DNA of 35,037 bases. It comes from an uncultured Bacilli bacterium (lineage in GTDB: Bacteria; Bacillota_I; Bacilli_A; RFN20; CAG-449). Numbering within the stretch: position 1 is the first letter of the stretch; every line of letters begins with the position of its first letter. This document shows positions 3,737-33,388 of the stretch, one piece after another. The notes beneath the pieces were generated by a model. It ran no database searches, was not told the DNA's origin, and was given only the letters and a program-made list of their open reading frames with translations. The DNA lies in NCBI GenBank assembly GCA_947627505.1, contig CANQWG010000010.1:1-35037 (forward strand), given 5' to 3'. Made by a program: the position numbers and the translations under genes.

Positions 3737-3776
3737 CTCTACTGCTATTCTTTAAAATATTATACACCTTGAAGGT

Positions 3777-4652: not shown

Positions 4653-4660
4653 AGTTTCTC

Positions 4661-5203: not shown

Positions 5204-5221
5204 AGTCAATACCTCGACATA

Positions 5222-6106: not shown

Positions 6107-6133
6107 AAGTTACTCCACCTTTATAATATTTTA

Positions 6134-7865: not shown

Positions 7866-7924
7866 TCATCTCATCCTCTCATAATTTTAAGTTTAAAGGA
7901 ATTTTTGTATTAAAACAAATATTG

Positions 7925-9037
7925 TTAGTTGTCATTTACAATCTTCTCGTAAGCTTCAAGTAATTTTTTAGCTTCAATTGAAATGTCATATTTCGTATTA
8001 ACGAATGAAAGATATCCATTGCTACGATCAATTTCCGGAGCACTAATTATCCTTTCTGCGATTGTTCGTTTATCATCAGCAAGATTAAACGAATATACAT
8101 TTTGATTAACCACAAGTTCACTAGTGATTGTATCTGAATAAAAAAGATTTAGACCATTGACTTGTGCTTCAATTCCAACAACCGGTAGTCCTTCATAAAG
8201 GCTTGGTAATATAAAGCAATCCATAGCTTGATAAAATCTAGACGGATCTTTTTGAACCGCCAAAAAAATAATTTTATCATAAATATCCAATTTTTTAGAC
8301 CTTTCTATGACTTCATTATGTAGTGGACCATCGCCTATTAAAAATAAAACGGCATTTTCTTTTTTTACTAAAATTTCTTTAAATACTTCTAGCAAAAATA
8401 AATGATTTTTTTGAGGAACAAATCTTCCGATATGTCCAATCACAAATTTGTCTTTTAAATCGAACACTTTGCGAGTTTTTTCACGCAGTTCGTCGTTATA
8501 TTTAAAACGCTCTATATCAACAGCATTATTGATGATAGTAATTTTTCCTTTTTCAAAATAATCCTTACCAAACAACCACTTACCAGCCAATTCTGAGCAT
8601 GCAAAATAATGTGTTGCATATCGTTTTGAAAAAGGTCTTAGTAGATTTTTAATGATAGTTTTTAAAACTTCTTTATTATTCGCCGTCGAATGAGAATGAG
8701 CAATCCTAATTTTAATTCCTGCACGTTTAGCGGCTCTAAGCGCAAAAACGCTCAATGTATTCATATTGGAATGAACGATATCATACTTTTCTTTTCTAAA
8801 CAACTTCTCTAAACGCTTCATATATTTAAATGGATGCAAATAAGAGGGAATAACATAAACTTTACCGCCAAATTCTTTAATCTTATTTTTAACTACAAAG
8901 CTTGAATCTTTGTCTACAAAAAAATCAAACTGTACTTTTGTTTGATCGATAAATTTATAGTAATTTAAAATAACAGCCTCAACTCCCCCACCAGCTGTTC
9001 CAATAATCTGTGCAACTTTAATCTTCTTGTTTTCCAT
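7925..9037 (-). CDS. GT4-family glycosyltransferase
   Basis: 370 residues with the classic GT-B architecture. The N-terminal lobe starts KVAQIIGTAGGGVEAVILNYY, the glycine-rich acceptor-side motif seen in EpsF-like enzymes. The C-terminal lobe has GHIGRFVPQKNHLFLLEVF and FILPSLYEGLPVVGIEAQVNGL, which contains the E-x7-E donor-binding motif of GT4. It probably adds one sugar to the undecaprenyl-PP acceptor made by the priming transferase encoded upstream. It is the first gene after a strong promoter at 9146-9174, with a leader of about 100 bases, so it probably heads the transcript for the glycosyltransferase, rml, polymerase and flippase genes. Confidence 0.88.
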   Translation of the reverse strand: MENKKIKVAQIIGTAGGGVEAVILNYYKFIDQTKVQFDFFVDKDSSFVVKNKIKEFGGKVYVIPSYLHPFKYMKRLEKLFRKEKYDIVHSNMNTLSVFALRAAKRAGIKIRIAHSHSTANNKEVLKTIIKNLLRPFSKRYATHYFACSELAGKWLFGKDYFEKGKITIINNAVDIERFKYNDELREKTRKVFDLKDKFVIGHIGRFVPQKNHLFLLEVFKEILVKKENAVLFLIGDGPLHNEVIERSKKLDIYDKIIFLAVQKDPSRFYQAMDCFILPSLYEGLPVVGIEAQVNGLNLFYSDTITSELVVNQNVYSFNLADDKRTIAERIISAPEIDRSNGYLSFVNTKYDISIEAKKLLEAYEKIVNDN

Positions 9038-9291: not shown

Positions 9292-10017
9292 TTATTTAGC
9301 GCCTTCTTTTTTAAAGACAGCACCAAAGGTCAAGAATATCAGTTTAATATCATACCAAAAAGATCTTTTGTTTTTAATGTAATCTAAATCTAACTCAATC
9401 ATTTGATTGAAAGTAGTATTACTTCTTCCTCTAACTTGCCATTCACCTGTCAATCCTTGAGGAACAAGAAGTCTTTTTTTATCATATTCATTATAAAGTT
9501 TATATTCACGAACAGTACATGGTCTAGGTCCCACTACCGACATATCGCCCTTTAAAATATTAATAAGTTGTGGCAATTCATCAAGCGATGTTTTTCTGAT
9601 AATTTTTCCAAACTTCGTAATTCGAGGATCATTTTCCATTTTAAAAGTTATTCCGTCGGTCTCATTTTTATCTAATAAACTATCCAATTCTTTTTCAGCA
9701 CCTTCATGCATTGATCTAAATTTATAGAAATTAAAGATTTTTCCATTTTTACCAACTCTTTGAGAAACATAAATCATTTTTCCCTTGGAAGTACATTTAA
9801 CCAATATGCCAATTATAAGCATAATAGGTGAAAGAATTATAAGTGCCAAAAGTGAAAAAACAATATCAAAAGTTCGTTTAAAAAAGGCATAAATTTTACC
9901 TCCTTTAACTATAGTTTCATCATTGTCTAATCTATAATCAATATCAAAAGTTTTTGGAATATCACTTATAGCAACTCCGCCACCACTTTCAATATTTTCT
10001 TCAAATTCTTTTTCCAT
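9292..10017 (-). CDS. Priming polyprenyl-phosphate glycosyl-1-phosphate transferase
   Basis: 241 residues from the ATG at 10017, the size of the short, single-helix (monotopic) phosphoglycosyl transferases (PF02397). After about 40 polar residues comes one hydrophobic re-entrant helix (FDIVFSLLALIILSPIMLI). The catalytic region follows with KFRSMHEGAE, the Asp-Glu pair in KTSLDELPQLINILKGDMSVVGPRP, and GLTGEWQVRGRS near the end. It transfers a sugar-1-phosphate from a UDP-sugar to undecaprenyl phosphate, starting repeat-unit assembly; the sugar cannot be predicted. The ATG at 10017 has AAGGG at suitable spacing. An upstream in-frame GTG at 10029 overlaps that Shine-Dalgarno and is less likely. 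It has its own promoter. Confidence 0.92.
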   Translation of the reverse strand: MEKEFEENIESGGGVAISDIPKTFDIDYRLDNDETIVKGGKIYAFFKRTFDIVFSLLALIILSPIMLIIGILVKCTSKGKMIYVSQRVGKNGKIFNFYKFRSMHEGAEKELDSLLDKNETDGITFKMENDPRITKFGKIIRKTSLDELPQLINILKGDMSVVGPRPCTVREYKLYNEYDKKRLLVPQGLTGEWQVRGRSNTTFNQMIELDLDYIKNKRSFWYDIKLIFLTFGAVFKKEGAK

Positions 10018-10065
10018 TCCTAACAACACCCTTTTAATTGTAGCACAATCACTGCCACCTATACA

Positions 10066-10094
10066 TTTATACTAAAAAAGAATGTTTGTGTCAA
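10066..10094 (-). promoter_or_regulatory. SigA-type promoter for the priming transferase
   Basis: On the minus strand TTGACA (10089-10094) is followed by a 17-base spacer and TATAAA (10066-10071). The predicted start, near 10059, lies about 42 bases before the ATG at 10017. The promoter lies in the 88-base gap after cpsB and would let the priming transferase be transcribed separately from the cpsC/D/B genes. Confidence 0.65.
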
Positions 10095-10117
10095 TATTTA
10101 TATTGGTCATTTAATTT

Positions 10118-10846
10118 CTATTTATTGGAAATATTTTTTATTTTTAATATTTCGTTTTTAATATTATTGGCATTAATTTCAAATACTTGTTCCGCAATTT
10201 TTATGCCATATTTTTTGGTTATAAGTTCTTTAGTCTCTTTAAGATTGGGGCTTCTAAAATTATTATCGTGACAATCGCTTGAAATTAAATCTACAAGATT
10301 TTTCTTAAAGCACAAATGAGAAATTTTTTTGGCTCGCTTTCCAAAAAAACCAAATAGACTAGCGCTATCAATTTGAATTAAAGCGCCTTGTTCTTTATAA
10401 TTTAATATTTTTTTTAAATCTATATAATTATATCTTTCAGGATGAGCGATAATTGGTTTAAAGCCGTTGGCTTTAAGATCAAATAGGACATTTTCAATAT
10501 TATAATTTTCGTAAAACGGATTAAATTCAATTAAAATATAATTAGAGTCATTTAGTGTTTTAATTTCTCTTTGAATCAGTTTTTCTAATAAATTTTCAGT
10601 GTAGTATATTTCACTACCAAGTAAAAATGCGATATTAAAAAAAGATACTTTTGAATAAAATTCTTCAAAGAATTTATCTATATCTTTCTTTTTTAAAAAT
10701 TTATTATCATTATATTTTATATGTGGCGTGAGAACTATCGTATCAACGCCATCGGCAATTTCTTTTTTTATCATCGCAAGCGATGTTTCCATATCCCTAG
10801 ATCCATCATCAACATTTGGCAAGATATGGGTGTGAAAATCAATCAT
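10118..10846 (-). CDS. cpsB: CpsB/CapC-type PHP-fold tyrosine-protein phosphatase
   Basis: 242 residues, the normal size for the manganese-dependent PHP phosphatases of Gram-positive capsule loci. The metal-binding motifs appear in order: MIDFHTHILPNVDDG at the N-terminus, TPHIK, IIAHPERYNYI, and SSDCHD near the C-terminus. It would dephosphorylate the tyrosine cluster of CpsD, resetting the kinase cycle that controls chain length and export. The ATG at 10846 was chosen because it begins the HTH motif at the family's usual position and follows AAGGAGG. It lies after cpsD here, across a terminator-like hairpin, whereas in the streptococcal order cpsB precedes cpsC and cpsD. Confidence 0.93.
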   Translation of the reverse strand: MIDFHTHILPNVDDGSRDMETSLAMIKKEIADGVDTIVLTPHIKYNDNKFLKKKDIDKFFEEFYSKVSFFNIAFLLGSEIYYTENLLEKLIQREIKTLNDSNYILIEFNPFYENYNIENVLFDLKANGFKPIIAHPERYNYIDLKKILNYKEQGALIQIDSASLFGFFGKRAKKISHLCFKKNLVDLISSDCHDNNFRSPNLKETKELITKKYGIKIAEQVFEINANNIKNEILKIKNISNK

Positions 10847-10865
10847 AAACATATCCTCCTTATTT

Positions 10866-10890
10866 ATAAAAAGCACTTTTAAAAGTGCTT
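10866..10890 (-). terminator. Terminator-like hairpin between cpsD and cpsB
   Basis: On the minus strand an eight-base stem (AAGCACTT / AAGTGCTT, 10871-10890) with a TTAA loop is followed by TTTAT, giving five consecutive T with the stem end. It starts 4 bases after the cpsD stop and ends about 20 bases before the cpsB start. The stem is short and AT-rich, so partial termination or attenuation is more likely than a full stop. No new promoter is seen before cpsB, so cpsB would depend on readthrough. Confidence 0.55.
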
Positions 10891-10894
10891 AATA

Positions 10895-11590
10895 TTAATG
10901 GTTCTTTTGACCATAATGATATCTATAGTAATAGTAAGATTTTTTCAATTTATCGTGAGTTACGACAATTCCTAAAATATTTATATTAGTATCCTTTAAA
11001 AGTCTAACGCTTTTCATCACTTCAGCTTTTTTAGTAAATCCAATCGATGCTACGTTTATCACTCCATCAACAATTTGACCTAAAAGTAAAACATCACTGA
11101 CTAAAAGAACCGGTGGCGTATCTAAAATAATATAATCGTATTTGTCGCGAAATTGTGATATCAAATTTTCTAACATCTTACTTTGTAATACGACATTTGG
11201 GAAAATTGTCGCCTTACCTGCTGTAATAATGTCTAAATTGTCGCGAGTCTTTATAACTTCTTCTAAAGTAGCTTTCTTAGAGCAATAATCAACAATGCCA
11301 TTACGATTTTCAACACCTAAAACACGATGGACATCACTGCGGCGTAAATCTAAATCAATAATAATCACTTTTTTACCTTGTTTGGCATAAAGGTTTGCTA
11401 AATTACACGCAGTTGTGGTCTTACCTTCACCGGGATTAGGCGAAGTAACTGCAAAAACTTTCACAGGCTTATCGATAGAAGATAAATCAATATTTACTTG
11501 TATAGTTTGATAAGCTTCAGAGTAAATAGAAGACAAATCTTCTACAAGATAAGATTGTTTATTAGACCTAGTGCCTTCATGTTTAGTCAT
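10895..11590 (-). CDS. cpsD: CpsD-type capsule tyrosine kinase (BY-kinase)
   Basis: 231 residues. The Walker A motif is at 50-59 (SPNPGEGKTT), Walker A' at about 75-83 (VIIIDLDLR) and Walker B in YDYIILDTPP. The C-terminus ends in a tyrosine-rich tail (SYYYYRYHYGQKNH), the autophosphorylation cluster typical of these kinases. The catalytic domain is separate from the membrane activator CpsC, as in Gram-positive bacteria. It would control polymerisation and export by cycles of phosphorylation (with CpsC) and dephosphorylation (by CpsB). The ATG at 11590 follows AAGGAG and overlaps the end of cpsC by 8 bases, a sign of coupled translation. Confidence 0.95.
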   Translation of the reverse strand: MTKHEGTRSNKQSYLVEDLSSIYSEAYQTIQVNIDLSSIDKPVKVFAVTSPNPGEGKTTTACNLANLYAKQGKKVIIIDLDLRRSDVHRVLGVENRNGIVDYCSKKATLEEVIKTRDNLDIITAGKATIFPNVVLQSKMLENLISQFRDKYDYIILDTPPVLLVSDVLLLGQIVDGVINVASIGFTKKAEVMKSVRLLKDTNINILGIVVTHDKLKKSYYYYRYHYGQKNH

Positions 11591-12338
11591 TTTTTTTCTC
11601 CTTTTTTGTCTCAAAATCAGGAATTACTCCTAACACTTTAGCATCTACGATTTTTTCAACATCATCACTATTATGAATATCGGTATTGGTTAATTCTTTT
11701 ATAAACGCGATGGCAAGTCCAACAATTAATCCTACTGCAAAACCTACAATTACATAAGTGGTTCTACCATTACTGACACTATAATAACCACTTGCTGAAG
11801 ATGCTTCTTTGATAACGCTAGACAACAATGCATATTCATCAGCAGATATTGTTGTAATTCTATTAATAATAGCTTCGACTGCAGCTTGTGCAAATTCGCC
11901 ATCAGTTGAATTAAAATAAATCTTTACAATCAAAGAATTCTGAGTATTCGATGTCGACAAACTAGATCTCAATGAATTTAATAACGTTGGGAATCTATCA
12001 TTTTCCTTTAGTTTTGCAATATATTCTTCCTCATAAAAACCTTTTTGAGTTAAATCATCGGCAACTTCTGTCAAAAATTTTTCTTCATAAAGGTAGTCAT
12101 TCAATGTCGGAATATATCTAAGACCTGCAATAATACTATCTACTCCGGTTTCTTCTTTTCTAGAACTTGTATCAATTAACACTGATCCATTAGCTTGATA
12201 TTTAGGAGCAACCATAACAAAGGCATAAACTATCGCTGCCGCTGTTGCTATAATTGTCGAAATAATAATTATCAGTATGTTCTTTTTAATTATTCGCCAA
12301 ATATCAATTAGCGATAATCCGTCTTTTTCTTGATCCAT
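11583..12338 (-). CDS. cpsC: CpsC-type chain-length determinant / kinase activator
   Basis: 251 residues with a Wzz domain. The first membrane helix is near residues 20-42 and the second near 205-228. Between them is an extracytoplasmic region beginning PKYQANGSVLID, the usual Wzz motif after helix one. The cytoplasmic tail ends KKEKKND. The family anchors and activates the cognate BY-kinase, here CpsD, and sets chain length. The start at 12338 is preceded by AAGGAG at good spacing; a longer reading from 12395 would put extra residues over the promoter. First gene of the capsule region. Confidence 0.92.
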   Translation of the reverse strand: MDQEKDGLSLIDIWRIIKKNILIIIISTIIATAAAIVYAFVMVAPKYQANGSVLIDTSSRKEETGVDSIIAGLRYIPTLNDYLYEEKFLTEVADDLTQKGFYEEEYIAKLKENDRFPTLLNSLRSSLSTSNTQNSLIVKIYFNSTDGEFAQAAVEAIINRITTISADEYALLSSVIKEASSASGYYSVSNGRTTYVIVGFAVGLIVGLAIAFIKELTNTDIHNSDDVEKIVDAKVLGVIPDFETKKEKKND

Positions 12339-12366
12339 AAATAAATCTCCTTGTAAGCCTTTTTTC

Positions 12367-12395
12367 ATTTTATCCATATTTAGCAATAACTTCAA
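12367..12395 (-). promoter_or_regulatory. Probable promoter of cpsC-cpsD-cpsB
   Basis: On the minus strand TTGAAG (12390-12395), a 17-base spacer and TAAAAT (12367-12372) fit a SigA promoter with four and five matches of six. The predicted start, near 12360, leaves a leader of about 22 bases that holds the Shine-Dalgarno. It sits in the 94-base gap after the nucleotidyltransferase gene, where no terminator is visible, so capsule genes could also receive readthrough from the upstream cassette. Confidence 0.45.
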
Positions 12396-12432: not shown

Positions 12433-13521
12433 TCACTTTAAATGCAAAATTTTATGCACATTTTTCGTCTCTTCAATTACGCTATTTTTCATCGTCAACG
12501 AATCAAACGCTTTTTTCAAATGTTTAAAAGGAAAGGTAAAAAAATGATAAATATAGGTTAAGGGAACCATAAATTTCTTTCCTCTTATTTTTGGATAACG
12601 TAGGTACAATATCTCAAGTTTTGGAAACATTTTACTCAAGAAAAATTTAAATTTACTTTGCCCTTGACCAGCCATCATATTTCCAATATAAACATCCCCG
12701 TTAGCGTAACCATGAATTCCCGAGCGAACAATGTAATCTAAAATCGTATTGGTGTCTTCTTCACTTAATGCTTCTTCATTTGCTTCAAAAATCACTTTAA
12801 TTAATTTTTGCAAACTTTCATAAAACTCTTCTAATTTAAGAGATTGTAAATAAGAAATGACCTTTGTTTGATCCACTGTGTTGAATTTTAAAAAAAGATA
12901 GATATCAATAAGGGGACGAATCCCAGCACCCGCCATTAACATATGCCTCGAATAATGGTAAACCAAATAAGCTAATTCGAACTCTTTTTCAAATCGGAAG
13001 GCTCCTTCTATTATTTGAAGATGCTCGACATAATTTGTAAAAGCTACATCTTTAATATCACTATTAATCAAATGATGATGCATTTCAACATTGATATTAT
13101 TTCTAGTAAACAATGCTTCATGAAGATTTTCTTTTTTATAATTAAAACCATTATTTTTAATCAAGGCCACGGCTTTATCATAGTTATCATCAAGAATCAA
13201 ACAATCTAAATCGCCCATCGTCCGAATAGTGCGATCCGGATATAAATTACGAAGATAATAACCTTTTAAAAACATGAAATCAATATTATTTTCTTTTAAT
13301 AATGTCGCTATTTCATTTGCTACTTCATCGTATTTTTCATGAAGTAAAAAAGCAGCATAATAATATGTTTTTAGACGTTTGTCTTTTGTTACTAAATACA
13401 ATAAAGGTAACAATGATTGTTCCTTAAAAAAGTCAAACATTTTTTGATCAATTTTGACATCGGTTAATGTTTCGCCTTTTAAACCACAATTTATAATGTC
13501 GATGTATTCTTGATACTTCAT
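12433..13521 (-). CDS. NTP_transf_5-type nucleotidyltransferase of the CotH/HprK/PqqD cassette
   Basis: 362 residues, resembling the uncharacterised nucleotidyltransferase family PF14907. The family motif spans residues 84-106: FLKGYYLRNLYP, then R100 and MGDLD, with D104 and D106 as probable metal ligands. VEMHHHL near 145-151 offers the third acidic residue, E146. The remainder is helical with no membrane segment. Such proteins occur with HprK-like kinases and PqqD-like proteins in some peptide and exopolysaccharide loci, but the acceptor is unknown. The ATG overlaps the stop of the ABC gene by 4 bases (ATGA), so it is the last member of the coupled cassette. The residue before D104 is Gly, as in active members, so catalytic activity is plausible. 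Confidence 0.78.
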   Translation of the reverse strand: MKYQEYIDIINCGLKGETLTDVKIDQKMFDFFKEQSLLPLLYLVTKDKRLKTYYYAAFLLHEKYDEVANEIATLLKENNIDFMFLKGYYLRNLYPDRTIRTMGDLDCLILDDNYDKAVALIKNNGFNYKKENLHEALFTRNNINVEMHHHLINSDIKDVAFTNYVEHLQIIEGAFRFEKEFELAYLVYHYSRHMLMAGAGIRPLIDIYLFLKFNTVDQTKVISYLQSLKLEEFYESLQKLIKVIFEANEEALSEEDTNTILDYIVRSGIHGYANGDVYIGNMMAGQGQSKFKFFLSKMFPKLEILYLRYPKIRGKKFMVPLTYIYHFFTFPFKHLKKAFDSLTMKNSVIEETKNVHKILHLK

Positions 13522-15101
13522 TTATTCCGCTCCAATTCAATTGTTCGAATATTATCGATATCCAATCGTCGATGAGAAACGATAATCAATGTTTTGTTGA
13601 GATTTATTAAATCCTGTACTATTTGACGTTCATTGGTGTTATCTAATGCCGAAGTGAACTCATCAAGCAGCATAACTTGCTTACCATTTAAAAGTGAAAT
13701 AGCAATCAGAATCCTTTGAATTTGGCCCAAAGAAAGCCCTTGTCCTCTTTCTTTTAATTCGGTATCGATTCCCTTTTCCAATTTCATTAAATCATCGTAA
13801 ATCCGCGCTTTTTTCAAAGCCTCAACAATCTTTAATTCATCTTCTTCTCCGGATAAAATCATTATGTTTTCTTTGATGGTTCCTGAAAAAAGAATATTTT
13901 CTTGAGGAACATAAGAAAATAAATTGCGATTTTCAGCCGACAACGGATATTTTTTACTATCTTTTTCTAAGTATATTTCTCCCTTTTGCGGCTTATTAAA
14001 TCCTAATATTAAATTAAATATCGTCGTTTTTCCAATTCCCGATTCGCCTTTTATGAGGACGATTTCACCTTTTTTAATTCTCATCGAAAAATTTTCAAGG
14101 ACTTTTACATGATCATCATAAGCAAAATCGACACTATCAAATACTAGTGCGTCAAAATCAGATAATTGAATCGCGCTTTTTTCTTCATTTTCAAGTTTAA
14201 AAATATTTTCTAGCCGAGCATATGAAACACGATACACGGCAATACCATTAAATACCGAAGAAAAATTAGCTAACGGATTTTCAATATGACTTATTAATTG
14301 TAAAATCGCCGCGAAAGAACCATAAGTTAAAACTCCTAAATAAATTAAACTAGCCCCATAAACGATCCCAAAGGCGTAGACAATATTTAAAGCAGAAGAA
14401 ACCCCGACACTTCCTATTAGTCCAACCATCAAAAGTTTTCTCTTGATGACTTTATTTTTGTCTAACAATTGATCCATCATCTTTAAAGAACGCTTTTCAG
14501 CTTCCATAGCTTTAATGATTTTAGCATTTTCAATCGATTCTTGAACGTAAGCGTTGACTTTACCGCCGATTTCCAAAGATGCTTTGTGCCATTTTTTAGC
14601 AAATTTAGTATAGATTCTAGCGCCTATGATCATTAGAAATCCAAAAGCTATCAAAATCAATAATAATCGCCAATCAATGATGGCTAAAGAAATCAATGCA
14701 CAAACAAAGCGAGAAATATCGCCCCACAAAAAAGGAATTGCCGAGGTGACACCTGTAGCGACATTTTCAATGTCATGTAGAAAACTATTAGTGTATTCAC
14801 CTGAATGTTGGCTTGAAATTTCAGTGATCGTTTTATTTAATAAACTAGAGTAAATTTTTCTCTTTAAACCGAGGGTTATTTCGATATTATATTTATTTTT
14901 AATAATCCCTGAAGCGATTTTAATTCCCACTTGAAGAGCGATGCAAGCAACCAACAAACATCCAAAAAGAATTACACCTTCAAGATTTTTATTAGTGGCA
15001 GCATCAACTAAAAATTTAGTAAAAAGTGCAAGGGCGATTAATATTGAAGCACCAAAGGCATTTAAGATGCTTAGGTAGTACATTTTTTTCTTATCGATCA
15101 T
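13518..15101 (-). CDS. ABC exporter half-transporter (membrane domain fused to ATPase)
   Basis: 527 residues. Residues 1 to about 290 form a six-helix exporter membrane domain and 315-527 the ATPase. Walker A is GESGIGKTT (352-360), the Q-loop glutamine Q400, the signature LSLGQ (456-460), Walker B VMLLDE (476-481) and the H-loop H510. The signature has Leu in place of the first Gly of LSGGQ, which is tolerated in active exporters. There is no N-terminal C39 peptidase domain, so any leader would have to be removed by another protease; the S26-like gene overlapping it by 4 bases is the obvious candidate. It also overlaps the nucleotidyltransferase by 4 bases. The substrate is unknown: a modified peptide is inferred from the PqqD neighbour, but a lipid or glycan is possible. 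Confidence 0.85.
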   Translation of the reverse strand: MIDKKKMYYLSILNAFGASILIALALFTKFLVDAATNKNLEGVILFGCLLVACIALQVGIKIASGIIKNKYNIEITLGLKRKIYSSLLNKTITEISSQHSGEYTNSFLHDIENVATGVTSAIPFLWGDISRFVCALISLAIIDWRLLLILIAFGFLMIIGARIYTKFAKKWHKASLEIGGKVNAYVQESIENAKIIKAMEAEKRSLKMMDQLLDKNKVIKRKLLMVGLIGSVGVSSALNIVYAFGIVYGASLIYLGVLTYGSFAAILQLISHIENPLANFSSVFNGIAVYRVSYARLENIFKLENEEKSAIQLSDFDALVFDSVDFAYDDHVKVLENFSMRIKKGEIVLIKGESGIGKTTIFNLILGFNKPQKGEIYLEKDSKKYPLSAENRNLFSYVPQENILFSGTIKENIMILSGEEDELKIVEALKKARIYDDLMKLEKGIDTELKERGQGLSLGQIQRILIAISLLNGKQVMLLDEFTSALDNTNERQIVQDLINLNKTLIIVSHRRLDIDNIRTIELERNK

Positions 15102-15523
15102 GAGATTTTTCTACCTTTCAATCTAAATAGCATTCTCCTTAGTCCCATTATACACCAAAAAAAGACAAAAAGCCGATAAAGTAAATTATTGACGCTGTGT
15201 TCTTTGCCTTTACGTTTAAAACTCACGACAACACCGATTACATTATCTTTTGGCACAATTTCAAATACCACTTGATTATCACCGGTCACTACCAAATTAT
15301 TTCCTTTAATTTTTATAACACGATGCAAAACGTAAGCATCGGTTGCTCTTTTATAAAAAATCGCATCACGCTTTTTTATTTCAGTAGCTTTTTTTAAAGT
15401 AACAATATCCCCAGTATTAAAAATCGGGCGCATCGAAGTACCACGCACCGGAAAAGAAAACAGTTGATTTAAAGCGAAAGTTTCCTCCATCAAAGGAATC
15501 AAATCTTGAATACTTTTATTCAT
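15098..15523 (-). CDS. S24/S26 signal-peptidase-like protease with Ser/His arrangement
   Basis: 141 residues. PVRGTSMRPIF places the nucleophile at Ser30. GDIVTLKK and RDAIFYK follow. VLHRVI places His67 where bacterial type I signal peptidases carry the catalytic Lys, and TGDNQ (80-84) is the late conserved box. A Ser/His pattern is the hallmark of SipW, archaeal and ER signal peptidases. Unlike standard signal peptidases there is no N-terminal anchor; a hydrophobic helix lies near 113-127, close to the basic C-terminus (RLKGRK). It overlaps the PqqD-like gene by 8 bases and the exporter by 4. Trimming of an exported peptide is inferred; cleavage of the CotH-type lipoprotein is less likely because that protein has a lipobox. 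Confidence 0.8.
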   Translation of the reverse strand: MNKSIQDLIPLMEETFALNQLFSFPVRGTSMRPIFNTGDIVTLKKATEIKKRDAIFYKRATDAYVLHRVIKIKGNNLVVTGDNQVVFEIVPKDNVIGVVVSFKRKGKEHSVNNLLYRLFVFFWCIMGLRRMLFRLKGRKIS

Positions 15524-15785
15524 CTTCTAAAATACCGAGTTTTTTAAAATTTTCAAAAATCTCCAATAAATCTTGCTTAGCAACATCCTCTTCTACTTCA
15601 TATTCTTTAACTATAGCGTCTAAAATCTCTTCAAAACTTTTATTATCGAGAAGTTTTCGATATATAAATAGCGCTGTTTCGTTTAAAGACACTAAAGAAG
15701 AAGTATCCAATTTTCCATCACTAAAAGGTACTAACACTTCATCTGGTCCGATTTTTTTTAAAAAGTAGTTTCCTGTAAGTTTCAT
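15516..15785 (-). CDS. PqqD-family peptide-binding protein (RRE-like)
   Basis: 89 residues, the full length of a stand-alone PqqD. The N-terminal half is predicted beta (VLVPFSDGK), followed by the family motif SLNETALFIYRKL (33-45) and a helical part with FEEILDAIVKEYEV and DLLEIFENFKKLGIL. PqqD-like domains bind leader peptides of ribosomally made, modified peptides and present them to enzymes. Here it overlaps the HprK-like gene by 4 bases and the protease by 8, which makes joint action very likely. No precursor peptide gene is found within the cassette, so the partner must be encoded elsewhere, or the protein has been adapted to another client. Confidence 0.88.
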   Translation of the reverse strand: MKLTGNYFLKKIGPDEVLVPFSDGKLDTSSLVSLNETALFIYRKLLDNKSFEEILDAIVKEYEVEEDVAKQDLLEIFENFKKLGILEDE

Positions 15786-16600
15786 AGTGATAATAACTCC
15801 TTTTCTATTATTTTAACAGCGTCATAAGAAATATCGCAAGTAAGTAAAAAACAAGGGAGCAAAATGAGACGGTCGACAAAGTAGTTCCAATGATCAAGTT
15901 CATCAAAATCCGCCGGTTGTACAACTTGAGTAATCAATCTTACAAATGCTTCTTTAGGTGTCAGACGAGATACTTCATTGATCTTTCCTTGTTGTAAAAA
16001 AATGATAGCTTTTAATGGAGCATGAATCGGATTATCTCTTCCATGTTTGCCGGAAAATGGTGTTCCATAAAGATACAACTTATCATTTTCGGAAAGAATT
16101 GTATTTTTGTCATCGTTAATATGCGAAACACCATATAATTCTTTCCATAAATTAGTATGCGTTGATTTTCCCGTTCCTGACGGTGCGGTAAACAAATATC
16201 CGTTATCACGATATAAGATTGATGAACCATGAATCAAAAAAGCTTGTTCACATTCTTCAATCAAGTGATTAAAAGCATATTGAACCATGATGATTTCTTT
16301 AGTAATATCGTCATTAAAAAGATCGACATAAGCATTGTTTCCATCATACGTTATTTTACCAAATGCTTCTCCATCTAAGCCTAAGGGAATTTGCACAAGT
16401 TTTCCGTTTTCATAACCTTTATAAAAGGAATTGCTCTTCTTTAAATCGGTAAAACTTAAAGTTTGTGTTTTTACATTTACGATAATTTTAAATTCTTCTT
16501 TATCATCATTTGTCTTATATTTTCTAAACCGCCACGATAAATAATCTTTATTAAAAAATTCAATTTCAAAATAATGTTTGGCAATCAAATACTTATTCAT
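15782..16600 (-). CDS. HprK/PEPCK-like P-loop kinase
   Basis: 272 residues from the ATG at 16600. AFLIHGSSILY (about 120-130) is followed by the P-loop APSGTGKST (139-147), then SHINDDK (159-165), where the aspartates are placed for metal binding as in HprK-type enzymes, and SGKHGRDN (184-190). The pattern fits HPr-kinase-related proteins seen with PqqD partners (the HPr-rel-A type and the ScmC type; names from memory) rather than true HPrK/P, whose N-terminal domain differs. A kinase of this fold phosphorylates a serine in the lasso peptide paeninodin, so a peptide Ser/Thr target is reasonable here, by inference. The start overlaps the CotH gene by 8 bases and the end overlaps PqqD by 4. It would probably be annotated automatically as PEP carboxykinase. 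Confidence 0.82.
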   Translation of the reverse strand: MNKYLIAKHYFEIEFFNKDYLSWRFRKYKTNDDKEEFKIIVNVKTQTLSFTDLKKSNSFYKGYENGKLVQIPLGLDGEAFGKITYDGNNAYVDLFNDDITKEIIMVQYAFNHLIEECEQAFLIHGSSILYRDNGYLFTAPSGTGKSTHTNLWKELYGVSHINDDKNTILSENDKLYLYGTPFSGKHGRDNPIHAPLKAIIFLQQGKINEVSRLTPKEAFVRLITQVVQPADFDELDHWNYFVDRLILLPCFLLTCDISYDAVKIIEKELLSL

Positions 16601-18965
16601 AACTATAGTCCGCTTTTGCAACAGAAACCGTCGCATTTGCTACGTTCAAAACAATATTTAACTTTTCACCGACGCTCAATTCATAAACTTTAAAAGTTTG
16701 AGCGGTTGCTGAATCGTATAAAACCGAATTATCTCCGTTGTTTCCATATAAAATACCATTGGAGCACATAATTTTAAACTTCAACGGATATAAATCATTG
16801 TAATCACCTAACGAAGTAAATTCATATTGATAGATATCGTCGTTTATTTTAGAAAAAAGATATTGCTCGTTATTTAAAGCTTCTGCCCACCCATTGCCTT
16901 CAAAAGCAAAATAGTAGTCATAAGATGGGTCGGTCCATTGTCCTTCATTTTCATAACTATAGTTAAGTTTCATCTCATTCAAATCGAGCGTAAAGCAAAT
17001 CTTTTGATAGTCATTAAAGCCACTCAAAACCCCATTAGGGCCACCTTCAACGATATTGAAGTCTTCATCAAACCCGTAATCGACATTACCAAAGAAATTG
17101 CCATCATTGATTTTAAATTCGATTGAATTTCGATAAGATTTATCAATTTTAAAATCTAAGTTATAAATATTGTCGTTAGTACTTTTGGTAAATTTATATT
17201 TATCTAACGCTTCCCAACTTGAAAAATCACCGACGAGATAAAAATTTCCGTTAACCGGCTTAATCGGCTTATCATCATTTCCATCATCATCTTCTAAGGA
17301 TACATGTTTTAATTTTCTGTTTACGTAATTTTCAAACGTCAAGTTTCCGCTATACTCTTCAAGGGAGAAGCGAACTTCGTTATTTCTGATTCCACCGATT
17401 TCGCTTGTACGATAATCTTCGCCATAATTCGCTTCAGCCAACTGATAATATATGTTAAATTTCTCCGTAGTAAACCATCTCGAGATTTTTAATGCTTTAC
17501 AATAATTATCAAAATCGGTTTTTACTTGATTTGATGAAGAAGCTAAAATGGTCTTTAAATATAACGGATTTACTTGTTGACCACCATTACCTACGGCCAT
17601 ACGAGAATACATTTCAACTTCACTCATACCATTTCCACTTGGATTCCAATCTTCGCATAATCCAAAAACACGATCGTGATCATAGGGAATAATGATCATC
17701 TTACCATCAGTTCTTCGAATATAAAGATAATAGTTGTTGTAATTGTTACGCAAATCATCGGGATCACCGACAAGATAATTGATCGCTTCAAGCCGAGCAA
17801 AATATTGCAGATCGATTTTTTGAGCGATGTCATTGTAAGATCCACTATTTAAAGTTTCTAAAGCCGTTCTCAAACGATCATTATTATCGGTTCCTTTATT
17901 GGTTTTACGATTATAAACCGGCACATAGGCTCCGTTATCACGGTCTTCTCCGATTTTTTGACCGGAGAACGAATCATAAGTCATATCGGGAGTGCCGCCA
18001 CCGCTTCCCCGACCATAAGTTACCTTATAAAGATCGCCGTATTTAGAATTTGCCACTCCATTAGCGGCCGCTTTTTCTTCATCCCAAGTTCCCATATTGA
18101 GGTAACTTTGTTTAGAATCTAAATTTCTCTTAATAAATTCTTTATCGATGGTTTCATAAATCGAACAAACTCCTAAATCAAGAGTTCTGGTTCCATCATT
18201 GAAATCGAGATTGGCCAATGAAACGTGTGGCACCAATAATCCGTTGGCACGATAAATATCATAAGCATAAATCTCTTTAACGTGGGAAGCATCGTGAGTT
18301 CGATTCCATTTAATATCTAATTTTTCTAAACCCAACAAATTACGATTTTTTCGTTCTTCCCTTTCAGTAGGAGTATAAGTTTTAGCATCGCTACCATAAA
18401 TAGCGACGTCATCAAACAATTCACCAAACGATAATTTATAATGCGATTGATTCACCAAATTACCACTATCATCGAATGGATCAGATAATGACATATTTCC
18501 TTTAAGACGAATTCCGACATCATTAAAAGAATAATTATAGTTTTCACCACATCTTGTAAGCGAAATAGTGACTTCTTTAGCAATGCGATAGATATCCGAC
18601 TTAGCATAATTATAAAAATCCGATTTTAATTTCAATATTTGATTTTTATCCATCTTAATCGAAATATTAACTTTATTATGCAAATCAAAAAGATCTTCAT
18701 ATGTCATTTCGCTATTATTAGGACAAGTGTAAACTTTATCTTCATCGTGAGTGTCAATTTGTCGATAATCGTCAGGGATTGTTACAGAGCTTTGATTATG
18801 TGAAGAATCACCGCTTGTATCACTTTGAACAAATGAACTCTCATCACCTTCACTATTACTTTGATTTTCATTTGAATTCTCATTTGAAGAAGAAGGTTGT
18901 TTGAAAAAAGAACATGAGCTTAATGCAACGAGTGTTAAAAGCAAACCTAATTTCATTTTTTTCAT
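16593..18965 (-). CDS. CotH-kinase lipoprotein with two C-terminal beta domains
   Basis: 790 residues. A lipoprotein signal ends at Cys18 (ALSSC). A Ser/Asn-rich linker (about 20-62) leads to the CotH domain (about 75-560). CotH motifs present are GIRLKGNMS (151-159), LEKLDIKWNRTHDASHVKEI (213-232), and VGDPDDLRNNYNNYYLY then IPYDHDRVFG (399-435), which corresponds to the metal-binding Asp motif of CotH kinases. An acidic linker is followed by two related domains (about 573-672 and 683-790) that begin NFYLVGDFSSW and YYFAFEGNGW and resemble carbohydrate-binding beta-sandwiches of the SusE/F or CBM kind. The ATG at 18965 has AGAGG upstream, inside the mgsA end; a longer reading from 19007 lacks that support. 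It overlaps the kinase gene by 8 bases. CotH phosphorylates spore-coat serines in Bacillus; the substrate here is unknown. Confidence 0.87.
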   Translation of the reverse strand: MKKMKLGLLLTLVALSSCSFFKQPSSSNENSNENQSNSEGDESSFVQSDTSGDSSHNQSSVTIPDDYRQIDTHDEDKVYTCPNNSEMTYEDLFDLHNKVNISIKMDKNQILKLKSDFYNYAKSDIYRIAKEVTISLTRCGENYNYSFNDVGIRLKGNMSLSDPFDDSGNLVNQSHYKLSFGELFDDVAIYGSDAKTYTPTEREERKNRNLLGLEKLDIKWNRTHDASHVKEIYAYDIYRANGLLVPHVSLANLDFNDGTRTLDLGVCSIYETIDKEFIKRNLDSKQSYLNMGTWDEEKAAANGVANSKYGDLYKVTYGRGSGGGTPDMTYDSFSGQKIGEDRDNGAYVPVYNRKTNKGTDNNDRLRTALETLNSGSYNDIAQKIDLQYFARLEAINYLVGDPDDLRNNYNNYYLYIRRTDGKMIIIPYDHDRVFGLCEDWNPSGNGMSEVEMYSRMAVGNGGQQVNPLYLKTILASSSNQVKTDFDNYCKALKISRWFTTEKFNIYYQLAEANYGEDYRTSEIGGIRNNEVRFSLEEYSGNLTFENYVNRKLKHVSLEDDDGNDDKPIKPVNGNFYLVGDFSSWEALDKYKFTKSTNDNIYNLDFKIDKSYRNSIEFKINDGNFFGNVDYGFDEDFNIVEGGPNGVLSGFNDYQKICFTLDLNEMKLNYSYENEGQWTDPSYDYYFAFEGNGWAEALNNEQYLFSKINDDIYQYEFTSLGDYNDLYPLKFKIMCSNGILYGNNGDNSVLYDSATAQTFKVYELSVGEKLNIVLNVANATVSVAKADYSYE

Positions 18966-19465: not shown

Positions 19466-20767
19466 TTAAATTACAAGCGTCGTAACGGATTCTGCATCAA
19501 TAGATAATTTGTAGGTAATACCTTTAACTTGAATAGTTGTCTCTTTACTAGCACCTTCATTAGCAATTACCACTATTATTTGGCCATTAGGATTTTTATA
19601 AGATGTAACTAGCAACTCACTTTGGTTTTTAACATCGATCCTTTTAGCACCCTTTTCAACAAAATGGGCAAAATGTTTGACGATATAATAACTCGGATTA
19701 AAGTGTAACTCTTTGGTTTTAGTATCAAACATGATCAACGCTTCACAATAATTACCGACGTGATTAGGGCCACCTTTTTGATCCAAAAGCAAATTCCAAT
19801 CAATAAACCCTTCCGTATAATTTAAACTATCCAAAATATAGTTTTTGGCGTAACGCAACGCATTTTTCATCGTTCCGCTGGCACTTGAAGGATCTTGAGG
19901 ATTAAGTCCTAATAGTTCGATGCAACCTTCAGTAAAAATCAAGTGTTTACTTGGATGCATATCATGTACTTTTTTAAGATTATTTGAACAATATCCCTCA
20001 TACCAATGATAAGCAAAACCATATATGATTTCATCTGCCTTATCATCTTCATAATATCCTTGAACTCGTTCGACAATGACGTCGCGATTATGGTCCCAAA
20101 ACAACAACTTGGTATTTAATTTTTCTTTTTGAATGTTTTCATAAATTTTCTTACCTAGTTTCATTTCGTTTTGAGGAGTATAAATACACGATTCCCAACT
20201 TTGAACTGCTTCCGGTTCGTTTTGAATGCTCAGCAACGAAATTTCGATTCCCGCTTGTTTCATGTGTTTCAAATATAACGTAAGGTACTTAGCATAGTCA
20301 TCATAACTGTTTTCTTTAAGATACCCACCACGACATTTTTCGTTCGTTGTTTTAAACATTTTAGGTGGTGACCAAGGCGAAGCCATAAAGGTGATATCAT
20401 TCTTTTGAAGCGCCTTAAGAACAAATGGTAAGATGTGTTTTTTATCGTAGTCTAAAGAAAAATCCGAACAATCGGGTTTAAAAGCATAATCATAATCCGC
20501 TGTTGCAAAATCGCAAGATCCGATAGTAAGACGTCCCAAATTATAATTAAGCCCATCTTTTGAAAAATAAGCGTCTAAAACCTTAGTCTTTTGCTCTTCG
20601 TTTAATTTTTCAAAAATCGAACATGCCGCATCGGTAAAAGCCCCTCCAAAGCCTAAATGGGTCTGGTAAGTAATCTTATCGTCAACGATTATTTGAGGAT
20701 TACTTTTATAGGCATCGCAATGCTTTACCTTAAAATAATTATTATAAGTTGAAGTGATCTGTTTCAT
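19466..20767 (-). CDS. Cytoplasmic GH30 beta-glycosidase
   Basis: 433 residues with the GH30 layout: a (beta/alpha)8 barrel from about residue 35 and a short beta domain at the end. GFGGAFTDAA (39-48) and SPWSPPKMFK are family signatures. The acid/base is Glu184 in IQNEPEA and the nucleophile Glu280 in FTEGC. Characterised relatives are glucosylceramidases and beta-1,6- or beta-1,3-glucan-active enzymes. There is no signal peptide, so it acts on imported oligosaccharides. Its place at the end of a laminarin-type operon suggests removal of beta-1,6 branches or of glucose units, by inference. The start has AAGGA ten bases upstream and overlaps the previous gene by 26 bases. Subfamily not determined. 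Confidence 0.9.
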   Translation of the reverse strand: MKQITSTYNNYFKVKHCDAYKSNPQIIVDDKITYQTHLGFGGAFTDAACSIFEKLNEEQKTKVLDAYFSKDGLNYNLGRLTIGSCDFATADYDYAFKPDCSDFSLDYDKKHILPFVLKALQKNDITFMASPWSPPKMFKTTNEKCRGGYLKENSYDDYAKYLTLYLKHMKQAGIEISLLSIQNEPEAVQSWESCIYTPQNEMKLGKKIYENIQKEKLNTKLLFWDHNRDVIVERVQGYYEDDKADEIIYGFAYHWYEGYCSNNLKKVHDMHPSKHLIFTEGCIELLGLNPQDPSSASGTMKNALRYAKNYILDSLNYTEGFIDWNLLLDQKGGPNHVGNYCEALIMFDTKTKELHFNPSYYIVKHFAHFVEKGAKRIDVKNQSELLVTSYKNPNGQIIVVIANEGASKETTIQVKGITYKLSIDAESVTTLVI

Positions 20768-21563
20768 TTTTTTTCAATCCTTTCCGATAAATCTCTTTAA
20801 ATTGATTTTTATTGATCGTCATGTCGAAGACATGAAGAGAAAAAGCCATAAATACTACTTGAGCAAACCCAAAATAGAAAACCATGGAAATAAAAATACT
20901 GATCCATATGGCAAAATTATAAGGGATAAATTCAAATAGTAAAAATGGGATCATCACCAATATGAAAATTAAGATATTTTTATGCAGATATCCAAAAGTA
21001 AATCTCAAAGCATTGTTAAGCAACTGTTTGAATGTCACTTGATACAAAATCGTCTGTGTCTGCATATATAAAATCACGATTAAGACCAAGAAAAACAAAG
21101 CGTAGCTAAGACCGCTTAAAATAATTTTAAAATTACTATTAAGTTCCATAACGCTTATTAAAGATAACGAAGTATGCAAAATAAAATAGAATATTCCACA
21201 TAGTGCAAAAATCTTTGCGAAAGATTTACCGTTTTTCTTAATCCCCAAAGCGAAGTCTTTTGTGACATTGGCTCCTTCATTAAAGAGCAGGCGTTTAAAA
21301 AAATATAATCCTCCGGCAAAGCCCAAAGACATGATCATCAAAAGGAAGATCAAAACGCCATAAATTAAAATCACATTCAGCAATTGATTTTCGGCAAAAA
21401 ACGAAGAGAATCCCACAAAGACGATCCACAATATCGAAGGTAACGCAAATAAAAACGTGTAGATACTGCAAGTTATGATTTCAAAAAGATGATATCGCAA
21501 AACATCGATAATCTGTTCTCGTCTATTTAAAGGTAAATTGCCTTCATTAAAATTTTCAATCAT
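20742..21563 (-). CDS. DUF624/YesL-like membrane protein
   Basis: About 273 residues with six hydrophobic helices and a basic, polar C-terminus. The overall pattern (an N-terminal amphipathic region, paired helices, a GGLYFFKRLLFNEGANVTKDFALGIKKNGKS loop near residue 88) is reminiscent of DUF624 proteins, which accompany ABC sugar transporters in Bacillota and have no settled function. The ATG at 21563 has GAAAGG at better spacing than the ATG at 21569. It overlaps the upstream gene by 8 bases and the GH30 gene by 26, so all are translated as one unit. Family assignment is by pattern only. Confidence 0.6.
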   Translation of the reverse strand: MIENFNEGNLPLNRREQIIDVLRYHLFEIITCSIYTFLFALPSILWIVFVGFSSFFAENQLLNVILIYGVLIFLLMIMSLGFAGGLYFFKRLLFNEGANVTKDFALGIKKNGKSFAKIFALCGIFYFILHTSLSLISVMELNSNFKIILSGLSYALFFLVLIVILYMQTQTILYQVTFKQLLNNALRFTFGYLHKNILIFILVMIPFLLFEFIPYNFAIWISIFISMVFYFGFAQVVFMAFSLHVFDMTINKNQFKEIYRKGLKKNETDHFNL

Positions 21564-22194
21564 GCGCATACCTTTCTAGAATAAATTTTGCCGTTTGAAG
21601 CGCCATATCATTCAAGTCATCGGTTTTTCCAAATTTTAAACTATTTTTGTTAAAAACCATATAAAAATTATCAATCGGGTTAAATTCTATCCATTGATCA
21701 AAATGGTATTGATTGTTAAATAATGGATTTTCATGATCATAAATTTTTATACCATAACTTTCAGTCTGATAATTATAGTATTCTACTATCATTTCATCAC
21801 TAACAATTTGCTCTTTCATTTGTGAATCTATTTCAAGAAAATTGTCCTTAATCAAGCTTGAAACGTCGATTAAATCTTGCTCTCTTAGAATCAAAATATC
21901 GGCATTTGTTCCAAAGGCTTCATAAAAATCAAATAGTTTAGGATCTTCAGGAGAATATAAATAAAAATTATATTCTAGAATCCGAGGATCCTGTTCTTTT
22001 AAATCTTGGGCGAATTTTTCATCGATCAAACGTTCACCCTCTACGAAGATATTGATTTTTTCTTCATCTTTATATTCGTTGATTTTATTGAGCGAATAAT
22101 AAAACAAGCAATAAAATAAAAGAAAAACGACGATAAGAAAAATCCAATTATATTCAAAATACCGCGATAACTTTCTTTTCGATAATTCTTTCAT
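21556..22194 (-). CDS. Membrane-anchored protein with a solute-binding-like lobe (unrecognised)
   Basis: 212 residues from the ATG at 22194. One membrane helix (about residues 17-38) is followed by an outside domain of about 170 residues. The domain contains INIFVEGERL, NADILILREQDLID and DNFYMVFNKNSL near the end, which recall segments of MalE-like solute-binding proteins but cover only part of that fold. The start was chosen on GAGGAAA upstream; a TTG further 5' is less likely. It overlaps the DUF624-like gene by 8 bases and is separated from the gene before it by 1 base. A role as a small accessory part of the sugar transporter is a guess from context. Confidence 0.6.
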   Translation of the reverse strand: MKELSKRKLSRYFEYNWIFLIVVFLLFYCLFYYSLNKINEYKDEEKINIFVEGERLIDEKFAQDLKEQDPRILEYNFYLYSPEDPKLFDFYEAFGTNADILILREQDLIDVSSLIKDNFLEIDSQMKEQIVSDEMIVEYYNYQTESYGIKIYDHENPLFNNQYHFDQWIEFNPIDNFYMVFNKNSLKFGKTDDLNDMALQTAKFILERYAHD

Positions 22195-22195
22195 C

Positions 22196-22681
22196 TTAGA
22201 TTTCCTCAATCTTTACAATCACGCGATTAAAAACCGCTATCCGATAGTTTTTTTGTTCTATCAAGTCTTTTAAATAATCCGCTAAAAGATAGTAATGTAA
22301 CGTTTTATTTAATTCGTCGTCAATCACTTCGATTTTACATACATCAAAACCTTCATATATTTCAAAATTACGATTTATTTTGCTGATCTTCATCTCGTTC
22401 AGTTTAGGATGGCTATGTTCAGCGTTATAAATAAGCGTCAAAATTTTTCTTTGAGGATTAACGACACTAAACCACAAAAAAGACATAAACCCGGCACAAA
22501 GACTACAGATAATCGTGCTACCAAATACAAACCACATCATCGTTTCTCGATTCTGCAAAACGAAAGTTAAGATAATGCATAAGACGATCACGACAGCGAA
22601 AAAGATCATCATTACAACATACATGGTGACCTTTTTTTTCAAGTTATTAAAGAAAGTATCTGTCAATAAATCGTATATCAT
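22196..22681 (-). CDS. Small two-helix membrane protein, function unknown
   Basis: 161 residues. Two membrane helices (about 18-43 and 49-70) are followed by a soluble cytoplasmic domain of about 85 residues with alternating strands ([34 protein letters not shown]). No family is recognised. The ATG overlaps the stop of the transporter ATPase gene by 4 bases, which strongly suggests that it is made with the transporter. Together with the next two genes it forms a run of three membrane proteins placed between the ATPase and the GH30 enzyme. Confidence 0.65.
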
Positions 22682-24117
22682 GCGATATATTTTTCGGTAT
22701 TCACATCGAATAGATGGACTTTGTCTAGGTCAAATACGATCTCGATTTCTTCATGGTTATTGATATCGCGAACCGCGGAAAGTTTTGCAATTAAGCGCTC
22801 ATCTTTAACCATCGTATGAATGAAATATTCTTGACCGAGCAATTCCGCTGTCATCACTTCGACCTTCAAAGGTTTTGAAAGGTTAGTCGCATTGGTAGAC
22901 ATTCCGCTTTCAGTGATATTTTCTGGACGCACCCCAAAAATAATCTGATGCTTTCCTTCTTTTAAGTAAGTGTCAATAATCGATAGTTGCTTATCGATCG
23001 AATTGATTTCTTGACTATCGAGGATTTTTTCTTCTTCACTCAAAACACTTTGATCTTTTCCAAGCAAATCTTCTTTTTGTTGTTTGAGTCTCAATATCTC
23101 TGACGCGTAAAAATCATCGTGAGCTTTTTGATGTTTTTTCGTCAATTCAATTTCAAATCCGTTTTGCAAAATCAATTTACCATGATCATAAGTGGCTTTT
23201 AAAATATTCATCGCCGGAGAACCAATAAAGGTGGCCACAAAGATATTGCTCGGATGATTGTAGACTTCTTTTGGAGTCCCGACTTGTTGTATTCTTCCTT
23301 TATTCATGACGACGATGCGGGTTGCCATCGTCATCGCTTCCGTTTGGTCGTGAGTAACGTAAATCGTCGTCGAGCCTAAAGTTTCATGAAGATTGACAAT
23401 CTCGCTTCTCATTTGAACACGCAGCTTGGCATCAAGATTGGATAAAGGTTCATCCATCAAAAACAATTTAGTGTCGCGTACGATCGCTCTTCCTAAAGCC
23501 ACACGTTGACATTGTCCACCCGACAACGCCTTCGGTTTACGATCCAAATATTCTTCAAGTTGCAAGATTTTAGCGACACGATGAACTTTTTCATCGATTT
23601 CTTCTTTCGGCACTTTACGCATTTTTAACCCGAAAGCCATGTTATTATAAACCGACATATGGGGATATAATGCATAGTTTTGGAAGACCATTGAAAGATT
23701 ACGATCTTTTGGTTCTAAATCATTCGAATAAACTTTATCGATATACAAATCACCGGACGTGATCGCTTCAAGACCGGCGATCATTCTTAAAGTCGTCGAT
23801 TTACCACATCCTGACGGACCGACAAAAACGATAAATTCATGTTCCTTGATTTCTAAGTTAAAATCAAAGACCGCTTGAACTCTATTACCATAGATTTTAT
23901 TGATATGTTGTAAAGAGATAAAGCTATCTTCAGGAGCGACTTTCGGTTCTAAGCGATGTTTGCTTTGATATTCAATCATCTCTTTATAAACGCGTTCTCG
24001 TTTTTTCTCTAAAAGTTTTTCCTGTTCTTCGTCTTGCTTTTCTTTTTCTTTACGAAGGGCCTTGGCCTTGCGGATTTCTTCTTTTTCCTCTTCGGTTTTA
24101 GGGGCATTAAATTTCAT
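22678..24117 (-). CDS. UgpC/MsmK-type sugar ABC transporter ATPase with extra segments
   Basis: 479 residues, about 100 more than usual for this family. Residues 1-62 are a very charged, Glu/Lys-rich helix ahead of the normal start. The ATPase core follows: Walker [10 protein letters not shown] (100-108), Q146, LSGGQ (198-202), Walker B LFLMDEP (218-224), H256. The regulatory TOBE-type domain begins near 285 but is split by about 60 charged residues (327-388, coiled-coil-like) before FGVRPENI. It energises the CUT1 permeases encoded 7 kb upstream in the same operon; in many Bacillota a single such ATPase serves several sugar importers. The start has a Shine-Dalgarno AAGGAG. Confidence 0.92.
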
Positions 24118-24128
24118 GTTTCTTCTCC

Positions 24129-25559: not shown

Positions 25560-25570
25560 GACCTTACCTC

Positions 25571-33387: not shown

Positions 33388-33388
33388 A

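Follow-up and report, generated by a model that had tools for sequence, protein, structure and literature searches.

A putative cyclase-less, lasso-like phosphopeptide maturation cassette and a family of scattered candidate precursor peptides in an uncultured Bacilli bacterium

The window analyzed here is one 35 kb contig (35,037 nucleotides; CANQWG010000010.1; G000:C10 in our numbering) of the 1.38-Mb genome of an uncultured Bacilli bacterium (60 contigs; estimated completeness, 96.6%). We consider it likely that the genes at 12433-16600 form a cyclase-less, lasso-like phosphopeptide maturation cassette, which would act in trans on several precursor peptides scattered over the genome. Gene order, a family of leader peptides, its co-occurrence with the cassette, the modules around the peptides and the register of their residues are all read from the sequences. 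The genes concerned, and those next in the operon, are as follows.

16593..18965, minus strand: CotH-family lipoprotein kinase, 790 amino acids (aa) (PF08757); genus-specific neighbour, outside the conserved core
15782..16600, minus strand, ATG at 16600: HprK-like putative peptide kinase, 272 aa (His124, P-loop 141-SGTGKST-147, Asp163-Asp164)
15516..15785, minus strand: PqqD-like putative leader-binding protein (recognition element of ribosomal peptide pathways, RRE), 89 aa (PF05402)
15098..15523, minus strand: soluble S26 protease of the Sec11/SipW type, 141 aa (Ser30/His67, no N-terminal membrane segment)
13518..15101, minus strand: ATP-binding cassette (ABC) exporter, permease and ATPase, 527 aa (ABC_membrane and ABC_tran, without a C39 peptidase domain)
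12433..13521, minus strand: NTP_transf_5 (NTP5) nucleotidyltransferase-fold protein, 362 aa (PF14907; K86 G87 ... D104xD106 invariant)
9292..12395, minus strand: exopolysaccharide (EPS) genes next in the operon (Wzz, CpsD-type tyrosine kinase, CpsB phosphatase, sugar transferase)

Six genes overlapping by 4 to 8 bases without a gap had been noticed in a preliminary description of this DNA, and they are present, all on the minus strand, with overlaps of 8, 4, 8, 4 and 4 bases in the order from CotH to NTP_transf_5. The families named there were also recovered: by Pfam, the scores (cut-offs in parentheses) were 69.6 bits (23.8) for CotH, 48.1 bits (23.4) for PqqD, 33 bits (23.3) for the S26 protein with Peptidase_S24 and 107.9 bits (31.2) for NTP_transf_5, and the exporter matched ABC_membrane and ABC_tran and did not match the C39 peptidase; the HprK-like protein was assigned by AlphaFold and Foldseek. 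The lipobox of CotH is ALSSC. Overlap alone was regarded as a weak sign of joint function, because overlaps are frequent in the same compact operon (neighbouring genes at 20742-22681 share 4 to 26 bases). The distance from MgsA to CotH is 1 base.

No precursor open reading frame (ORF) was found anywhere in the window, in agreement with the earlier reading of the cassette, when it was searched with the YxxPxPhi pattern and with profiles; a search of the window's own genome with one peptide from G047 also gave no match, the query being too distant. In Clostridial and Bacilli loci, HprK is immediately preceded by small ORFs of one family (40-55 aa) whose leader is of the lasso type, with the consensus [Y/F]xxPxPhi...[D/E][I/V]IxxS. 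In locus L046 such a peptide (9655-9765; MKEQYQTPEIECIIFKTQDIITTSGDPIELPVIPID) is placed 5 bp upstream of HprK, the corresponding distances in L031 and L085 are 86 bp and 85 bp, and in L056 (715-1336, plus strand; genome labelled Synergistaceae) four precursor-type peptides stand in tandem directly upstream of HprK. With a profile of the HprK-adjacent leaders, ORFs of about 45-60 codons were found scattered in genomes of the window's own family, and a second profile, mostly built from the scattered peptides, gave E-values down to 1e-14. The window's own genome carries one precursor at G000:C28:14391-14534 (MKTYQKPALKIDNICINDIILASVLAQGEGDIYNWDDFWGEVFDSTN) and a second copy at C35:1-73, which is cut by the contig end. 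A Shine-Dalgarno-like site precedes 59 of the 63 peptide ORFs (7.6% at random), and the orthologous peptides of G000 and G003 differ with a dN of 0.05 against a dS of 0.19. The peptides had no NCBIfam match in the scans run. The cognate precursor with the conserved leader is encoded in trans in the window's genome and adjacent to the cassette in other taxa. The short peptide encoded elsewhere that the preliminary description had postulated has in this way been given a candidate, a conserved small-ORF family that tracks the cassette; the proposed binding of such a peptide by the PqqD-like protein is well supported, the leader resembling those to which PqqD-like proteins bind in lasso systems.

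Co-occurrence was counted in 279 genomes of the order, in which HprK was scored at E<1e-30. HprK was detected in 38 genomes, 30 of which carry the leader peptide; among the 241 genomes without HprK, small-ORF matches were found in 6 (9 if three noise-like rows are counted). The Fisher p-value was 4e-27 (4e-25 with the noise rows included), which overstates independence, since the test ignores phylogeny and the genomes are related. The same neglect of phylogeny, together with the closeness of the genomes within genera, speaks for the alternative that the peptides and the cassette are unrelated genes retained in the same lineages by shared ancestry. This alternative is very improbable. Within three genera, peptide and HprK are gained or lost together: in g4 they occur jointly in G006, whereas the HprK of G009 and G012 has no P-loop and is not accompanied by a peptide; in g3 the two are carried by G013 and G017 and by none of six further genomes; and in g24 they are carried by G047, unlike its sampled relatives, which have neither. 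In Clostridia, moreover, members of this peptide family directly adjoin HprK. Neither observation is affected by the shortcoming of the p-value. A profile made solely from the scattered peptides of the order was also run on the 80 HprK loci from other species, which hold 8925 small ORFs; at E<=0.01 it recovered ORFs neighbouring HprK in other classes, with 11 matches on the strand of HprK and 1 on the other; the single opposite-strand match, in Streptococcus merionis, is on the strand of that locus's own S26, ABC and NTP5 genes.

The unit conserved in relatives comprises five genes, HprK-PqqD-S26-ABC-NTP5, and was found across the order and in Clostridia. PqqD is near HprK in 57 of the 80 loci and PqqD together with S26 in 44, among which ABC is also present in 19 and NTP5 in 17; the coupling to an S26 protease, which had been taken as unusual, is not rare. 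(For the HprK pattern scan, 4 members were used in place of a 14-member alignment that was too diverse.) The six-gene order including CotH occurs solely in the window's genus, in 3 of 4 genomes with 90-94% HprK identity, so that it is not unique to the window's contig, and outside the genus only the five-gene core recurs. No CotH was found in the fetched DNA of the 80 other loci, save one 17-bit trace in L106. Thus, five of the six genes make up the core and CotH is a local neighbour, and the suggested coupling of CotH to the system did not hold; as a core member CotH is ruled out by its distribution. That CotH might nevertheless be the functional center, as a kinase acting outside the cell on substrates that the cassette exports, was considered for three reasons: in three genomes of the genus its gene shares 8 bases with HprK, the peptide modules (see below) include Ser-rich lipoproteins, and in B. 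subtilis a Ser-rich coat protein is a phosphorylation substrate of CotH (PMC7821199). This is disfavoured and appears improbable: CotH is missing from the cassette genomes G004, G006, G007, G010 and G047, it occurs in many genomes without the cassette among the 58 relatives compared and does not track it, and related CotH proteins are located away from the cassette. In comparison with the CotH spore coat kinases, which share the PF08757 domain, the CotH of the window is a lipoprotein, it has an additional C-terminal region that matches nothing in Pfam, and its adjacency to the cassette is confined to one genus.

Several of the loci collected merit separate record. HprK-like proteins that have lost the P-loop were found, with no other cassette gene, beside a tyrosyl-tRNA synthetase-like gene in L026 (5044-5859, plus strand) and L027 (8489-9322, minus strand), in genomes without PqqD/S26 linkage and without peptides, and look like decaying or repurposed copies. 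In S. merionis (L035, 7143-15284) the cassette is distributed over both strands with a peptide and a 452-aa protein with a C-terminal PqqD domain, and the region also has an apparent CMP-sialate synthetase and a GT52/polysialyltransferase-like protein; this gene content suggests sugar decoration of the peptide. Proteins of one cluster, with a CxxxCxxC-like motif that by eye is of the radical-SAM type, are near HprK in 7 of the 80 loci (L091, 13953-15056, plus strand, and six others), hinting at other modification chemistries that use the same leader-binding parts. Ruminiclostridium cellobioparum, a cultured species, carries both the cassette and peptides (L093/L105).

The HprK-like protein had no Pfam match; its AlphaFold (AF2) model (pLDDT, 93.8) had HPr kinase/phosphatase and PEPCK structures as best Foldseek matches, and the protein has the His, the P-loop G.GKS, the Asp-Asp and the HPrK/PEPCK fold of that group. 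The kinase motif of BsfK, from the bsf lasso cluster, is H-G-G-G-K-S-D-D (PMC10368454); the spacing from His to G.GKS is the same in the window's protein as that printed for BsfK, and the first Gly of BsfK (G163) corresponds to Ala139. The best NCBIfam match of the PqqD protein was the lasso PqqD chaperone, with a score under the cut-off of that family. For NTP_transf_5, with the DxD motif of nucleotidyltransferases, the AF2 model (pLDDT, 91) gave ANT(2'')-Ia and LnuA as best Foldseek matches with modest E-values, and FKRP lower. The S26 protein carries the catalytic Ser (SM..P) and His (LHR), has human SEC11C as best solved relative (E 4e-6) and scored 54.1 bits with TIGR02228, just over the cut-off of 51.85. 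It shares the Ser/His catalytic motif and the core region with the signal peptidases I of the endoplasmic reticulum/SipW type (SEC11, SipW); in contrast to these, it is co-encoded with PqqD and has no N-terminal membrane anchor, none of the 55 homologues having a transmembrane-like stretch ahead of the catalytic Ser (the LHR motif is present in 55/55). These short, anchor-free proteins are therefore probably cytosolic, in the place of the lasso B2 protease, and the leader would most likely be trimmed inside the cell; an external S26 protease acting after export, as had been suggested, is disfavoured on the same grounds.

In the bsf cluster, BsfK phosphorylates the core Ser3, the PqqD-like BsfB1 enhances this reaction, and the leader residues are Tyr(-17), Pro(-14), Leu(-12) and Ile(-2) (PMC10368454). 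When the 63 peptides of the order were aligned with Y(-17) as the anchor, they had Tyr/Phe at -17, Pro at -14, Ile/Val at -2 (94%) and Ser at +3 (92%), with I, L, A, V or F at -12 of a YxxPxL-type leader spanning -17 to -12; the collecting profile partly selects for the residues at -2 and +3 but has no element fitted to the lasso register. Beyond Ser(+3), about 10 peptides (two of which are truncated at contig ends) lack any Ser, Thr or Tyr. The earlier suggestion of a phosphorylated peptide is consistent with this near-invariant Ser. The same Ser could instead be the P1 residue of an S26 cleavage site, the kinase acting elsewhere or regulating cleavage. Signal-peptidase sites have a small or aliphatic residue at -3 and a small one at -1, and the L, T or A at +1 with Ser at +3 matches this pattern; against it, BsfK phosphorylates exactly the same register position (PMC10368454), and some peptides carry no other hydroxyl residue after Ser(+3). 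We regard this alternative as somewhat unlikely.

Several points weigh against the proposed cassette and its chemistry, besides the relatedness of the sampled genomes. The role of Ser(+3) is ambiguous, as the residue fits a P1 site ([L/T/A]-x-S) as well, and this is the main uncertainty; moreover, among the Clostridial peptides, which are more diverse, just 52% have Ser at +3. The co-occurrence counts took HprK by itself as the marker of the cassette. No peptide was detected in eight HprK genomes (G009, G012, G023, G039, G186, G194, G205 and G246), and no HprK in the peptide genomes G002, G195, G198, G199, G235 and G245 (the completeness of G002, G198 and G245 is <70%). Some HprK loci have no ABC or NTP5 gene, so that these steps may be optional.

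The phosphorylated lasso clusters (paeninodin PadeK; BsfA/K/B1/B2; pseudomycoidin PsmK/PsmN) are alike in having an HprK-like peptide kinase, a PqqD-like protein, a nucleotidyltransferase-like protein and an ABC exporter, and in the YxxPxL-type leader with Ile(-2) and Ser(+3) as in BsfA (PMC10368454, PMC9266682). Such a shared tailoring set and leader raise the alternative of a lasso pathway whose cyclase and B2 protease are encoded elsewhere. However, PF13471 (transglutaminase-type B2 protease) was found in 0 of 58 genomes, with a control matched in 2 genomes, and PF00733 (asparagine-synthetase-like cyclase) was found neither in the window's own genus nor in the cassette genomes G004, G007, G010, G013, G017 and G047 (no match in any of G000-G004), with one weak match in G006. 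The Gly1 and the acidic residue at 7-9 needed for the lasso macrolactam are also missing: +1 is mostly L, A or T, and there is no fixed acidic column at +7 to +9. The lasso pathway was therefore rejected; it is largely refuted in this order and hardly credible there. The cassette resembles lasso tailoring in its working and fails the tests that define a lasso system, differing in that it has no cyclase, has the Sec11-type S26 protein instead of the B2 protease, and has several scattered precursors paired with secreted proteins, with an acidic core that does not start with Gly in the lasso register. The HPr-rel-A/HprK_rel_B and ScmC/ScmD cassettes (TIGR04352, TIGR04355, TIGR04249) likewise have an HprK-like protein adjoining PqqD, but all scores of the window were far under the cut-offs (for the HprK-like protein, 12.2 bits against 200 with HPr-rel-A, TIGR04352, and 23.7 bits against 125, a weak similarity, with ScmC, TIGR04249).

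The peptides typically lie 0-30 bases after a gene for a large Sec-secreted protein; the gene after them often encodes a small lipoprotein rich in Ser, whose tail is, for instance, VELPWL, LEFPPIH or VDLPYV. The C-termini of 30 of 47 such secreted proteins form one similarity cluster; used as a profile, this shared C-terminal domain gave 26 matches with E-values no worse than about 1e-6, none of them outside the cassette genomes, G002 and G023, and 22 of these 26 have a peptide within about 110 bases after them (our count). The domain had no Pfam match in the scans run. In L031, L102 and L085 the secreted protein comes first, then the peptide, then HprK; L046 has a lipoprotein between the secreted protein and the peptide, with HprK-PqqD-S26-NTP5 after them. 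One module of the window's own genome (L141) starts with the peptide, which is followed by the secreted protein and then the lipoprotein. Several peptide modules in genomes of the genus run up to contig ends. The domain of G000:C35:76-2145 and its relatives (L147, L150, L195) reads xAxAYxxxxGxxYFxxExxxSxxxLAxxY, some of the proteins having List_Bact repeats upstream. The conserved C-terminal [E/D][L/F]P motif of the small Ser-rich lipoproteins (L147, 4102-4338, plus strand; L158, 3924-4217, plus strand; L195) resembles some peptide cores, e.g., IELPVIPID in L046.

Alternatively, the cassette might modify a non-peptide substrate (a capsule lipid or sugar) of the neighbouring EPS operon, the peptides being incidental. 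In the window's genus the cassette is followed by Wzz-CpsD-CpsB-sugar transferase, and EPS genes are near HprK in 10 of the 80 other loci as a raw count (L036, L039, L050, L066, L067, L085, L091, L093, L105, L106), L085 keeping NTP5-Wzz-CpsD-CpsB in the window's order. This we judge unlikely: the peptides have a leader of the PqqD type and occur along with the cassette, the PqqD proteins of the lasso systems characterised so far bind to the leaders of peptides, and in sister genera (L020-L022) the cassette is away from EPS genes and the peptides are still present, so that EPS is a frequent neighbour and not the defining substrate. As for the rest of the window, 63-9037 (minus strand) is an EPS cluster with a Wzx-type flippase and, by sequence, dTDP-rhamnose genes (rmlA/C/D/B-like at 5222, 4661, 3777 and 1619), and 19466-34906 (minus strand) is a carbohydrate-use region with a solute-binding protein and permease, a MalK-like ATPase, GH30 and GH16 proteins and, at 25571-28666 (minus strand), a 1031-aa protein without Pfam match.

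For the peptide maturation cassette, we infer the following sequence of binding, phosphorylation, decoration, cleavage and export. The PqqD protein would bind the YxxPxPhi leader and present the peptide to the HprK-like kinase, which would phosphorylate the near-invariant Ser at leader-register +3. NTP_transf_5 may then add a sugar or nucleotide to the phosphate; for pseudomycoidin, PsmN, annotated as a nucleotidyltransferase, leads to hexoses on phospho-Ser (PMC9266682, review). The soluble S26 protease would remove the leader in the cytosol, replacing the lasso leader peptidase, and the ABC protein would export the short acidic product. Once exported, the product may work jointly with the large secreted protein and the lipoprotein rich in Ser that are encoded next to it, with assembly of the cell surface or matrix as the probable role. 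CotH would be a lineage-specific neighbour outside this pathway. PsmN is probably a PF14907 member like the NTP_transf_5 protein.

With a PqqD-fold leader-binding protein beside modifying enzymes, the system has the layout of RRE-dependent peptide modification, and it is possibly a new class if the role of the partner protein is confirmed. No description of the cassette or of the peptide family was found in open full-text papers, most subscription papers and preprints being outside this coverage. More tentatively, we suggest a ribosomal peptide class of gut Bacilli and Clostridia in which one trans-acting kinase/RRE/S26/exporter cassette would serve scattered phospho- or phosphoglyco-peptides, each paired with a large secreted protein via its C-terminal domain, the modified peptide being a tether, chaperone or cap in surface/EPS-matrix assembly. 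If the proposal is true, the orphan HprK-PqqD-S26-NTP_transf_5 sets of gut Firmicutes would gain a substrate family and a testable chemistry, and the lasso phosphorylation toolkit would work without the lasso cyclase. The pairing of peptide and cassette recurs across many gut bacteria. On the same condition, a small modified peptide would be connected with surface proteins that the cells secrete and, at some of the loci, with operons for exopolysaccharide.

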